Positions 49,889 to 52,853 of a stretch of 64,000 nucleotides of DNA are shown piece after piece. The translations under genes were made by a program, and so were the position numbers. The stretch's first letter is position 1, and each line of letters starts with the position of its first letter. The DNA comes from Polaribacter sp. SA4-12 (lineage in GTDB: Bacteria > Bacteroidota > Bacteroidia > Flavobacteriales > Flavobacteriaceae): assembly GCF_002163675.1 (NCBI RefSeq), contig NZ_CP019334.1, forward strand, positions 2,647,501-2,711,500, in the 5' to 3' direction. The notes beneath the pieces were generated by a model. That model saw only the letters and a list, made by a program, of their open reading frames with translations, was not told where the DNA came from and did not search any database.

Positions 49889-50731
49889 TTGTTTAATTAC
49901 ATAAAATACTTTTTAATAAAGCCTTTTAAAATTCAACCTTTTATTTCTAATAAGGTACAATTAAGTGTATCTCATGGTTTATTTATTTTTGCTTTTTTAA
50001 ATCTATTTAAACCATTTAAATTAGATCTTTTAAATGAATATTTTTTTGGATACTCCATATTAATGGGAATTCAATCTATCGTAACTCCTTATTTAATATT
50101 TGTTATTTTAAAAAAAGTAAATTACAAAAAATGGAATTATTCTAATATATTAATATTATGCTTTTTTTGTATTCTTATCTATAGTCTTGTTTTATGGTAT
50201 TCTAGTGGATTTTACAAAGATTTAAAAGGGTATAAAAAAAAATTATCCTTTACCCTTTTTTATAGATATACATCTATTATTTCAATTTTTTCTATGCTGT
50301 TGTTTTTTGTTTTAAATGATAAAATAATCAAACTTAAAAATAAGATACATAACATAAGAGTTGAAAAAAATAATCAAATTATAAAAGAAAAATTAACTAT
50401 TTATTCTGAAGGTAAAAAGGAAAGCATAGTTATTAATATTAATGAATTAATTTACACCTCAATAACTGGTAATTATGTAAGTTTCTATATAAATACACAA
50501 GAAGGTATAAAAGAATTAGTTTTAAGGAATACTTTATCAAATATTATTAATCAAATAAGCGATTACCCAAATTTTATTAGATGCCATAAATCTTATATTA
50601 TAAATACAAATTATATAGATTCTATTTCTGGAAACGCAAGAGGATATTTTTTAAAAACGAATCAAATAGAAAATCTAATACCTGTTTCTAGAAAATTCAA
50701 TAAAGAATACTTAGAAAAAATAGTCGACTAA
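49889..50731 (+). CDS. Membrane-bound LytTR-family transcription regulator (copy 1)
   Basis: 280 residues. About four membrane helices in residues 25-155 (LSVSHGLFIFAFLNLFKPF; ILILCFFCILIYSLVLW; SIISIFSMLLFFVLN), a short linker, then a LytTR DNA-binding domain from about 170: ININELIYTSITGNYVSFY, RNTLSNIINQISDYPNFIRC, HKSYIINTNYIDSISGNARG and IPVSRKFNKEYL. It has no receiver domain. Start is a TTG at 49889. Paralogue of 51351-52226, same strand. A conserved untranslated block with a terminator follows. Confidence 0.88.
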   Translation: MFNYIKYFLIKPFKIQPFISNKVQLSVSHGLFIFAFLNLFKPFKLDLLNEYFFGYSILMGIQSIVTPYLIFVILKKVNYKKWNYSNILILCFFCILIYSLVLWYSSGFYKDLKGYKKKLSFTLFYRYTSIISIFSMLLFFVLNDKIIKLKNKIHNIRVEKNNQIIKEKLTIYSEGKKESIVININELIYTSITGNYVSFYINTQEGIKELVLRNTLSNIINQISDYPNFIRCHKSYIINTNYIDSISGNARGYFLKTNQIENLIPVSRKFNKEYLEKIVD

Positions 50732-50735
50732 AAGC

Positions 50736-50814
50736 TTCCCATTTACCCCAAACCTTGTAATACAGCCCTTTTACTAAAATTAGTATTACAATAAGAATAG
50801 TTTTAATAAATTTG
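50736..50814 (+). promoter_or_regulatory. Candidate regulated promoter of sRNA copy 1
   Basis: C-rich repeats TTCCCATTTACCCCAAACC (50736-50753) start 4 bp after the LytTR stop, and a TAAATTTG -7 box (TAnnTTTG) is at 50807-50814. The repeats would be about 55-75 bp upstream of the start site. No clear -33 element. The same layout follows copy 2. Confidence 0.4.
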
Positions 50815-50820
50815 AATACG

Positions 50821-50900
50821 ATACATTTTAAGTTAAAAGTTGGGGGATTTTTAATTTAAAAGTAAAGCTCAATTTGTTAAATACAAATTGAGCTTTTTTA
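50821..50900 (+). ncRNA. Candidate small RNA, copy 1
   Basis: About 80 nt between a -7 box and a terminator. It contains AAGTTAAAAGTTGGGGGAT and TTTTTAATTT, then the stem AAAGCTCAATTTGT / ACAAATTGAGCTTT (50864-50896) with a T-run. The GTTGGGGGAT block and terminator recur after the second LytTR gene. No consistent reading frame between the two copies. Boundaries approximate. Confidence 0.5.
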
Positions 50901-51104
50901 TTATAAAATACTTTACTTCTTTTCTTTAGAATTATATTTTAAGAACTTTTAAACACTTATAGAACAATAGAATTTAAGTAACTAATAAAGACAACCATTT
51001 ATTAACTCTCATCTATATCATCTTATATCTTTGTGCTTTTGTTTTTTTACTATTTTAGTATCTATAGATAGTAAAATATTCAAAATATATCATGACTTTA
51101 AAAT

Positions 51105-51325
51105 AAATAGTATAATTTATATATCTTCACAATGAAATTATATTAGTCTTATAAAAAGTTCTAATATTAGAAATAAATAATATTTCTGGTTTAAAAGGAA
51201 ATGATCTTATTATAAGATGCTATAAATATTATATTCAAAATTCAATTTAAGGAAATACAAAAAAGTTTTTTAACAGTACTTATTTATATAGAAATTAATA
51301 CAAAAAGAACTAAAAGATTTAATCC
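51105..51325 (+). pseudogene. Decayed LytTR-domain remnant (third copy)
   Basis: Conceptual translation near 51115-51150 gives IYISSQ*NYISL, matching VYVTSQGNYASF of copy 2 with a TGA in place of the Gly codon. From 51203 another frame gives DLIIRCYKYYIQNSI, matching the YIIRCHKSYIVN block, then *GNTKKFF matching SGNARGYLL. Several stops and frameshifts are present. The membrane part is not recognisable in the DNA upstream (50930-51100). Confidence 0.7.
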
Positions 51326-51350
51326 GTTTATTTTACAATTATAAGTTTAT

Positions 51351-52226
51351 ATGAAGAGTATTATTTCTTGGCTCTCAAAGCCTTATTACTTTAACCCTAC
51401 AATAAAATTTAAACTAAAAATGAGTTTGTTTCATGGCTTATTTTTATTTCTTTTTTTATATGTTTTTAGACCTTTTTACCTCATTGAATTAGATCTTATT
51501 ATTTTAGAATATACTTTAGGAATAGGTATTATAGCTTTTTTAGCAACTTTTATTATTTTATACTTTCCTGCACTTATTTTTAAAGAATATTTTAATGAAG
51601 ATAATTGGACTATTGGTAGAAACCTTTTCTTAATGGCAATAGGTATTACCTTTATAGGAATTCTTTTATGGTATTTTGGAGAAATGTATAAAGCACCTTA
51701 TAATTTTAGAAAAATAACGCTGTTACAATTTCTATTTTATACGTTTTTAGTTAGTTTAATTCCACTAACCTTCTTTATTTTTATAAATGAGAAGAATGTG
51801 AGAGAAAGAAGAGAAAAAAGAGTATTTGAAATTAAAGAAATTAATAGAAAAAATGAAATTGATACTTCAAAAAAACTAAATAAAGAAGTTAGTATTCATT
51901 CTGATAACGGAAAAGAAAGTATTACTTTTCATATAGATAATTTAGTGTACGTTACATCTCAAGGAAACTATGCGAGTTTCTTTTTAAAAAATGAAGGGGA
52001 TTTAAAAGAAAAAATTTTAAGAGTTACTTTAACTAAAATTGCTATCGAATTAAAAGAGTATTCTTATATAATTAGATGTCATAAAAGTTATATTGTAAAT
52101 ATTAATATTATAAATGATATTTCTGGAAATGCGAGAGGATATTTATTAAAATCAGATTTTATAACTATTGATATACCCGTATCAAGAAGTTTTTCTAGAG
52201 AATCTTTACAAAAATTAATACGTTAA
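51351..52226 (+). CDS. Membrane-bound LytTR-family transcription regulator (copy 2)
   Basis: 291 residues with about four membrane helices (LFHGLFLFLFLYVFRPFYL; ILEYTLGIGIIAFLATFIIL; LFLMAIGITFIGILLWYF; FLFYTFLVSLIPLTFFIFI) and a C-terminal LytTR domain from about 180 (NLVYVTSQGNYASFFLKN; SYIIRCHKSYIVNINIINDI; IPVSRSFSRESL). It lacks a receiver domain, so it may sense a membrane or ligand signal directly. Similar to copy 1 over its whole length, but well diverged. ATG 51351. Confidence 0.88.
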   Translation: MKSIISWLSKPYYFNPTIKFKLKMSLFHGLFLFLFLYVFRPFYLIELDLIILEYTLGIGIIAFLATFIILYFPALIFKEYFNEDNWTIGRNLFLMAIGITFIGILLWYFGEMYKAPYNFRKITLLQFLFYTFLVSLIPLTFFIFINEKNVRERREKRVFEIKEINRKNEIDTSKKLNKEVSIHSDNGKESITFHIDNLVYVTSQGNYASFFLKNEGDLKEKILRVTLTKIAIELKEYSYIIRCHKSYIVNINIINDISGNARGYLLKSDFITIDIPVSRSFSRESLQKLIR

Positions 52227-52229
52227 ACA

Positions 52230-52310
52230 TTCCCATTTATCCCAAATACCCCAAAATACTTCCTGTTTGCAACAAAAATTAAATAGTATCATTTTTGAAA
52301 CCTATATTTG
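52230..52310 (+). promoter_or_regulatory. Candidate regulated promoter of sRNA copy 2
   Basis: C-rich repeats with about 10-bp spacing (TTCCCATTTA, TCCCAAATAC, CCCAAAATAC; 52230-52260) follow the LytTR stop, and a TATATTTG -7 box (exact TAnnTTTG) is at 52303-52310. The layout matches copy 1. No clear -33 element. Confidence 0.42.
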
Positions 52311-52316
52311 TCTTAA

Positions 52317-52403
52317 TGAAAAAAAAGTTAAAAATGTTGGGGGATATTTTTAATTTTACAAACTAGAAGCTCAACTTGTTAATTCAAATTGAGCTTTTTT
52401 TAT
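52317..52403 (+). ncRNA. Candidate small RNA, copy 2
   Basis: About 85 nt: AAGTTAAAAATGTTGGGGGA then TATTTTTAATTTT, ending in the terminator AAGCTCAACTTG / CAAATTGAGCTT (52367-52396, one mismatch) with a T-run. It mirrors copy 1. A 16-codon frame (MKKKLKMLGDIFNFTN) exists in this copy only, so an RNA function is favoured. Confidence 0.5.
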
Positions 52404-52601
52404 GTTTTAAAAGTAAACATTAAAATTTCTTATTTTATGCTCTTTATGTTCCATTACTTATTTACAAGCTTTTTAAAACTTCTTTTTTAATTACCTTATC
52501 ATTTTATTACTTATAGTTTTTATTTAAAACAAATAGTAATAAAAATAGCTATTCAGCTAATCATCATTTAGAATGCAGTAATAAAAAATATTTTATAAAC
52601 T

Positions 52602-52637
52602 AAAAAGCTCAACTTGTTTAAACAAGTTGAGCTTTTT
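52602..52637. terminator. Perfectly palindromic bidirectional terminator
   Basis: AAAAAGCTCAACTTGTTT and its exact reverse complement. It can end the minus-strand tatA transcript (stop at 52662) and resembles the two sRNA terminators. The DNA between 52404 and 52601 shows nothing else. Confidence 0.78.
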
Positions 52638-52661
52638 TATATTTTAAAAGTACTATTAAAA

Positions 52662-52853
52662 TTACTTTTTATCTTCTATTTTATCATCAGTATCTTCTTC
52701 TTTAGAAGCATTTTTAAACTCCTTAATTCCACTTCCTAATCCTTTCATTAATTCTGGTATTTTTCTTCCACCAAATAATAATAAAACGACTACTAAAATA
52801 ATGATAACTTGTGGGCCACCAATAAATCCAAAATATATAGCTAAACTGTTCAT
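52662..52853 (-). CDS. tatA: Twin-arginine translocase subunit TatA (short paralogue)
   Basis: 63 residues: [20 protein letters not shown] membrane helix, hinge [19 protein letters not shown] and an acidic tail ([13 protein letters not shown]). [14 protein letters not shown] is the classical TatA motif; this is the canonical-length member, the one at 30775 being longer. 64 bp downstream of the DUF2807 gene on the same strand. No tatC nearby. Confidence 0.92.

Follow-up and report, generated by a model that had tools for sequence, protein, structure and literature searches.

A family of G-loop small RNAs predicted beside LytTR regulator genes in Polaribacter, and its possible pairing with C-runs in mRNA leaders

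Two genes for LytTR-domain regulators lie in tandem in a 64,000-nucleotide stretch of Polaribacter sp. SA4-12 (contig NZ_CP019334.1, positions 2,647,501 to 2,711,500 of the forward strand; hereafter the window), and each is followed by a noncoding block of the same plan, which raises the question of what these blocks encode and what controls them. An initial annotation of the window had proposed that each LytTR protein controls its own adjacent small RNA through C-rich repeats. Comparison with related genomes supports this proposal, insofar as the block is conserved after LytTR genes and the putative operator follows the type of LytTR protein while the RNA loop stays the same. The hairpin, the extension of the family beyond LytTR genes and a complementary octamer in mRNA leaders had been missed. 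The reading that we favour, with moderate confidence, is that LytTR proteins activate small RNAs which act in trans, through pairing of a G-rich loop with leaders that carry a C-run. Comparison establishes, at the level of sequence, the hairpin, the terminator, the phasing of the operator, the common loop and the conservation of C-runs in one leader family.

Transcription, LytTR binding with activation, and physical pairing are the steps that we infer. Specifically, each LytTR protein would activate the adjacent promoter via a tandem half-site operator in helical phase with the -7 box, giving a terminator-ended RNA of ~80-86 nucleotides (nt) with UUGGGGGA at a hairpin tip. This loop would pair in trans with UCCCCCAA, or with a shorter or longer C-run, just 3′ of the start site in target mRNA leaders, candidate examples being those of an OmpA-like protein and of DUF6122. 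Pairing may alter translation, stability or leader attenuation, repression being somewhat likelier than activation, and several LytTR inputs, of both membrane and REC type, would converge on one common loop.

Two LytTR genes and the blocks behind them

The two LytTR regulators had been described as well diverged, and this holds: both match Pfam LytTR (Table 1), with 35% identity over 285 aligned positions. They seem to be of membrane type, with the membrane part apparently within the same protein, and no open reading frame (ORF) of at least 80 amino acids (aa) occurs between either regulator and the next gene, hence no separate membrane-inhibitor gene in the operon. By eye, the noncoding DNA between the units at 51150-51300 resembles a decayed third LytTR copy (fragments like IIRCHKSYIIN...GNARGYF).

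After both stop codons the described succession of C-rich repeats, TAnnTTTG box, core and terminator is present throughout, with two refinements. The C-rich repeats resolve into two half-sites ~30 bp apart, the second of which is poor in unit 1, and the AAGTTAAAA...TTTTTAATTT context of the core forms the two arms of one hairpin. From the -7 box to the end of the terminator each unit has two predicted hairpins, the first displaying UUGGGGGA and the second being the terminator itself; none of 200 dinucleotide shuffles folded as well as either predicted RNA. At 52600-52641, beside a convergent gene that is presumably tatA-like, stands one more AAGCTCAACTTG-type terminator, the third, which lacks a G-loop hairpin and is possibly a bidirectional terminator or the remnant of a unit.

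Table 1. Positions of the regulator genes and of the predicted elements of both units within the window
Feature	Position	Strand	Evidence
LytTR regulator 1 (280 aa, TTG start)	49889..50731	+	Pfam LytTR 3.4e-13, 50.1 bits
Unit 1 putative operator half-site 1, TTCCCATTTACCCCAAA	50736..50752	+	16/17 to type-1 site
Unit 1 putative operator half-site 2, weak	50764..50780, approximate	+	9/17 matches
Unit 1 -7 box TAAATTTG	50807..50814	+	sequence; 43 bp from half-site 2 start; predicted start ~50820
Unit 1 small RNA hairpin, loop octamer TTGGGGGA at 50840-50847	50826..50861	+	fold z -7.83; covariation; R1 42.6 bits (seed of model)
Unit 1 decamer GTTGGGGGAT	50839-50848	+	sequence
Unit 1 intrinsic terminator, AAGCTCAA-type	50865..50899	+	fold
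LytTR regulator 2 (291 aa)	51351..52226	+	Pfam LytTR 6.3e-9, 36.4 bits
Unit 2 putative operator half-site 1, TTCCCATTTATCCCAAA	52230..52246	+	17/17
Unit 2 putative operator half-site 2, TTCCTGTTTGCAACAAA	52260..52276	+	15/17; 30 bp from half-site 1
Unit 2 -7 box TATATTTG	52303..52310	+	43 bp from half-site 2 start; predicted start ~52316
Unit 2 small RNA hairpin, loop octamer TTGGGGGA at 52337-52344	52324..52357	+	fold z -5.18; R1 43.0 bits (seed of model)
Unit 2 decamer GTTGGGGGAT	52336-52345	+	sequence
Unit 2 intrinsic terminator	52365..52401	+	fold

A hairpin family and its putative operators

Within the window the decamer at the loop is weak evidence by itself, with two matches at up to one mismatch, a number equalled by 23 of 100 shuffles. 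The whole 3.99-Mb genome, however, holds five occurrences versus none of the reversed pattern, and all five have complementary flanking arms by eye. Two belong to the units of the window, a third follows a REC-LytTR gene, a fourth has no LytTR ORF nearby and the fifth lies 3′ of a 58-aa ORF. The initial annotation had suggested looking for the block after LytTR genes elsewhere and for covariation, and the block proved to be conserved. All three named Polaribacter loci fetched by the regulator 2 protein alone carry an TTGGGGGA hairpin after a LytTR gene; in L068, whose contig stops within the second LytTR gene, this is the neighbouring first one. Among 17 aligned hairpins, 85.6% of stem cells are paired compared with 57.0% in shuffles. 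Double-changed cells number 49 versus 19.5 in shuffles, with 0/500 reaching that value and slid controls giving at most 31. The covariation count is favoured by the choice of nine of the 17 for forming hairpins (the five copies from the SA4-12 genome and the three found by protein were not so chosen).

At E<=0.1 a covariance model, R1, has matches in 65 of the 116 Polaribacter genomes, nine at most in any one, where chance would give ~12 genomes; the best matches reach 4e-7, the E-values being rough and the seeds matching by construction. The same threshold gives 11 genomes out of 197 from other genera, with ~20 expected, which is chance level, and of the loci inspected there L141 alone is plausible by eye. 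With 40 further regions fetched, 74 distinct members were kept under the rule TTGGGG[GA][ACG] plus at least 8 of 11 pairs. This octamer-and-pairing rule excludes likely members, L005, L049, L051 and L056 among them, whose stem is bulged or interrupted and retains at least two doubtful ones (the reverse-strand match of L098 and the plus-strand match of L136). The loop octamer is TTGGGGGA in 69 members and TTGGGGAA in five, a constancy partly built in, because the octamer was part of the searches. By the rule applied, 59 of the 74 have a terminator. A LytTR-like ORF lies upstream of 37, and 35 of these lie within 300 nt downstream of it, 19 after membrane-type LytTR genes (W units) and 16 after REC-type genes, L109 being counted with the latter although its LytTR reaches no better than 4e-16 against the REC query. 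Among the remaining members are copies in tandem, with three consecutive ones in each of L052 and L132, and several come after a gene whose product ends in KYDIISAI or a close variant of it. In three genomes, that of SA4-12 included, the G-loop hairpin stands between two genes that we take to be ahpC-like and then thioredoxin-like (L063, L131, L170), and in L042 and L058 it lies just 3′ of a gene ending in FPYLASPW, presumably DUF4331-like.

These small RNAs appear to form an undescribed family. Rfam 15 gave no match at the gathering threshold in the whole window. At E<=10 it gave 28 matches in the region 50600-52700, the best at 26 bits against a cut-off of 100, and in nine further loci it returned rRNA, tRNA and Flavo-1 only, every one of them in L036 and at a distance from the G-loop hairpin. 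The exact decamer was dropped as a guide to the family, since, in a search of 149 family genomes, the 30 loci inspected (L006-L035) were mostly coding-like, with no hairpin plus terminator by eye.

The upstream DNA of the members points to operators that differ with the regulator. Half-site 1 of the 19 W units matches TTCCCATTTATCCCAAA at 14-17 of 17 positions, and half-site 2 (TTCCTGTTTATAACAAA) starts 30 bp on in 14 units and 19 bp on in two; in the remaining three the second site is poor, with best spacings of 28, 29 and 16 bp. The -7 box follows the start of half-site 2 by 42-44 bp in 15 units and by 53, 53, 57 and 63 bp in the rest, so that the spacing steps are mostly whole helical turns. 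A mismatch-free type-1 half-site is confined to the two units in the SA4-12 genome (allowing one mismatch adds none, and allowing up to three gives 56 matches versus 39 reversed), which fits each LytTR protein controlling its own RNA. REC units instead have a different putative operator, CATTCATCGA...CAATAAACGAA, with a 21-bp spacing, in 14 of 16 cases (p<=0.05 versus shuffles), a figure that is partly circular, as these units also served to derive the consensus by eye. The W units and stand-alone copies are the fairer tests, and here the REC-type operator scores in 0/19 W units, 8/26 stand-alone terminator-ended copies and 0/12 unterminated copies (73 of the 74 members were scored, L094 having too little upstream sequence). 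Variation of the operator with LytTR type, under a constant loop, makes the DNA part separable from the RNA part; the C-rich repeats are thus probably DNA operators and the loop the working part of the RNA. The idea that the repeats are the RNA target of the loop was dropped for the same reason: the loop stays constant across LytTR types and the repeats do not. Two TTTTTGCATTTCCCCCAAAA repeat elements also stand upstream of a REC-LytTR gene of the SA4-12 genome (L327, 2463 and 2826, minus strand).

Complementary C-runs in mRNA leaders

Shine-Dalgarno-type sites are little used in Flavobacteriia. In the SA4-12 genome the complement of the loop, TCCCCCAA, occurs 38 times versus 18 for the reversed pattern, five of the 38 being the hairpins themselves. 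Across the 116 Polaribacter genomes, UCCCCCAA lies 4-20 nt after a TAnnTTTG box at 103 sites versus 23 reversed, often in mRNA leaders; two of these sites are G-loop units (L112, L116) and four belong to one tandem array. The same count in the 197 genomes of other genera is 103 versus 64 reversed (family-wide, 104 in 199 genomes). Polaribacter thus exceeds the other genera with an odds ratio of 2.8 (p 0.0002), or 2.6 (p 0.0004) after removal of the G-loop units and merging of the array, between sets that differ in base composition. Among classified loci, 19/30 in the genus are noncoding versus 5/20 in the family (p 0.01), and 12/30 versus 2/20 lie ahead of an ORF. Recurrent leaders found by pattern belong to an OmpA-like protein (our label, its Pfam match being sub-threshold TSP_3 only), to DUF6122 in seven loci, where a terminator-like hairpin precedes the ATG, and to a 67-68-aa ORF in two.

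The OmpA-like leaders could also be gathered through the protein, for which 22 of 58 Polaribacter genomes hold 25 copies in all. Of these copies, 22 have CCCC or a longer run ahead of the ATG, with a -7-like box upstream in nearly all; those without such a run are L314, which has CCC, and L319 and L320, which have none. The leader in the SA4-12 genome reads TTCCCCCCCAATTG (a CCCCCCC run). Beyond five copies that hold the exact octamer, a C-run is found in 17 of 20, and among six outgroup matches the five readable leaders have none (0/5). Fisher p values against this outgroup are 0.0004 for 22/25 and 0.001 for 17/20, the orthologues not being independent.

Predicted RNAs that carry the complement of the loop also occur. 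Terminator-ended TCCCCCAA RNAs after a -7 box are seen in L328 (4161-5297, four tandem copies), L329 (5169) and L330 (2683), between a 358-aa MLDKLRIVKQ gene, presumably release factor 1-like, and an 801-aa gene. The view that every intergenic TCCCCCAA site of the SA4-12 genome is a C-type RNA of its own was narrowed, since we read opposite-strand G-type hairpins in L170 and L174, and the supposed terminator of a C-type RNA in L169 falls in a DUF6122 leader. The site in L225 appears to us to resemble 23S rRNA.

A number of results weigh against pairing in trans under LytTR control. The second half-site of unit 1 has few matches, and the loop constancy is, as said, partly a product of the searches; base pairs changed on both sides number 10 versus 8.2, matched by 44/500 shuffles, and are not decisive; and same-loop hairpins also lie 3′ of genes without LytTR. 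On the target side, the exact octamer is present in 5/25 OmpA-like leaders only, all five already found by the octamer pattern and the query's own included, and 11 of the 22 leaders with a C-run, which is 4-7 long, lack one or both of the A's (AA follows the run in 11, one A in three, none in eight). Against three C-run RNAs, W1 and W2 give ordinary duplex energies, 44 to 110 of 200 shuffled targets being as good, GGGG alone of the octamer is predicted unpaired in the folded RNA, and genomes with and without a detected small RNA differ weakly (75:12 versus 28:11, p 0.079).

Much of this would equally suit a loop that binds a protein or serves as a decoy, the RNA family and its LytTR control being real and the leader C-runs independent, as start or DNA-binding sites. 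We regard this as rather unlikely. The unremarkable duplexes, the incomplete AA and the lack of a clear difference between genomes are in its favour, and the same hairpin 3′ of mRNAs that we take to be ahpC-like and DUF4331-like is as expected of a protein site. Loop and leader octamers, however, are exact complements, the genus that has the family shows an excess of the leader octamer after -7 boxes, and C-run RNAs also exist as terminator-ended tandem copies. Less probable still is that the block belongs to the mRNA of the LytTR gene, as 3′ end and operator region, its hairpins acting in termination or stability and no separate promoter being used. A block that comes straight after the stop codon, comparable hairpins 3′ of other genes (L002, L042, L063) and the lack of an evident -33 element would agree with this, but the TAnnTTTG box keeps its distance of 42-44 bp from half-site 2 in 15/19 units, or of 53 or 63 bp in three more, and terminator-ended copies occur away from LytTR genes, some in tandem, with 8/26 scoring for the REC-type operator. 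It is very improbable that C-type RNAs are the regulators and G-loop RNAs sponges that titrate them, since, although terminator-ended UCCCCCAA RNAs exist, four in tandem in one genome, C-type arrays appear in few of the loci inspected and C-runs ahead of ORFs are common among the same loci.

Activation by LytTR proteins of RNAs that would pair with C-run leaders remains our preferred reading. More tentatively, and as a possibility that we would not expect to hold in full, Polaribacter may use a homopolymer RNA code in which several unrelated LytTR sensors feed many paralogous one-loop RNAs that read C-runs at the 5′ ends of envelope-protein and DUF6122 leaders, run length would be a tunable dial, and C-type RNAs, some in tandem arrays, would act as opposing decoys.

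Relation to known systems

In Staphylococcus the LytTR-domain protein AgrA drives a neighbouring regulatory RNA, RNAIII, through repeat sites; RNAIII is long, encodes a peptide and has a C-rich loop. The units considered here are alike in that a LytTR protein is encoded beside the putative RNA and LytTR-type repeats precede it, in phase with its predicted promoter. They differ in that the RNA is ~80 nt long, occurs in several copies, follows both membrane- and REC-type LytTR genes and has a G-rich loop. A second parallel is RepG of Helicobacter pylori, whose C/U-rich loop pairs with a G-run in the tlpB leader, run length setting the outcome (passages of PMC8295292). Here too a hairpin loop is complementary to homopolymer runs, of differing length, in mRNA leaders, pairing being predicted from that complementarity, but the polarity is mirrored (G-loop versus C-run), and the family has multiple copies and a link to LytTR genes. 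If true, our reading would set a system with a G-loop and a C-run beside RepG, and it would hint at what orphan membrane LytTR proteins do.

LytTR Regulatory Systems, as outlined in parts of PMC6193735, have direct repeats upstream of the promoter, mostly 12 bp apart, and a regulator with a separate membrane inhibitor in the operon. LytTR with membrane control and repeats upstream of a promoter recur here, and the REC-unit spacing of 21 bp would match, because 9-bp repeats 12 bp apart give ~21 bp from start to start. The repeats of those systems, on that account, lie upstream of the regulator operon, whereas here they lie 3′ of the regulator gene, before the RNA.

Little is known of small RNA regulation in Flavobacteriia, and PMC9723704 terms the family understudied. 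That paper presents Rfp18 of Flavobacterium psychrophilum, a conserved flavobacterial small RNA with predicted mRNA targets; LytTR and GGGGG are absent from its main text, which sets Rfp18 apart by description. No account of a unit such as the present one was found in a literature search judged by titles and the beginnings of abstracts, many subscription papers lying outside it. A genus-wide RNA family with a common loop, a named regulator class and a short, testable target octamer offers an entry point to small RNA regulation in flavobacteria. One further flavobacterial structured RNA, Flavo-1 (RF01705), has a copy near the REC-LytTR unit of the SA4-12 genome (L036, 3391-3525; 42.4 bits, cut-off 42), ~280 bp from the small RNA loop; it differs in lying on the opposite strand and in having a consensus without a UUGGGGGA loop.

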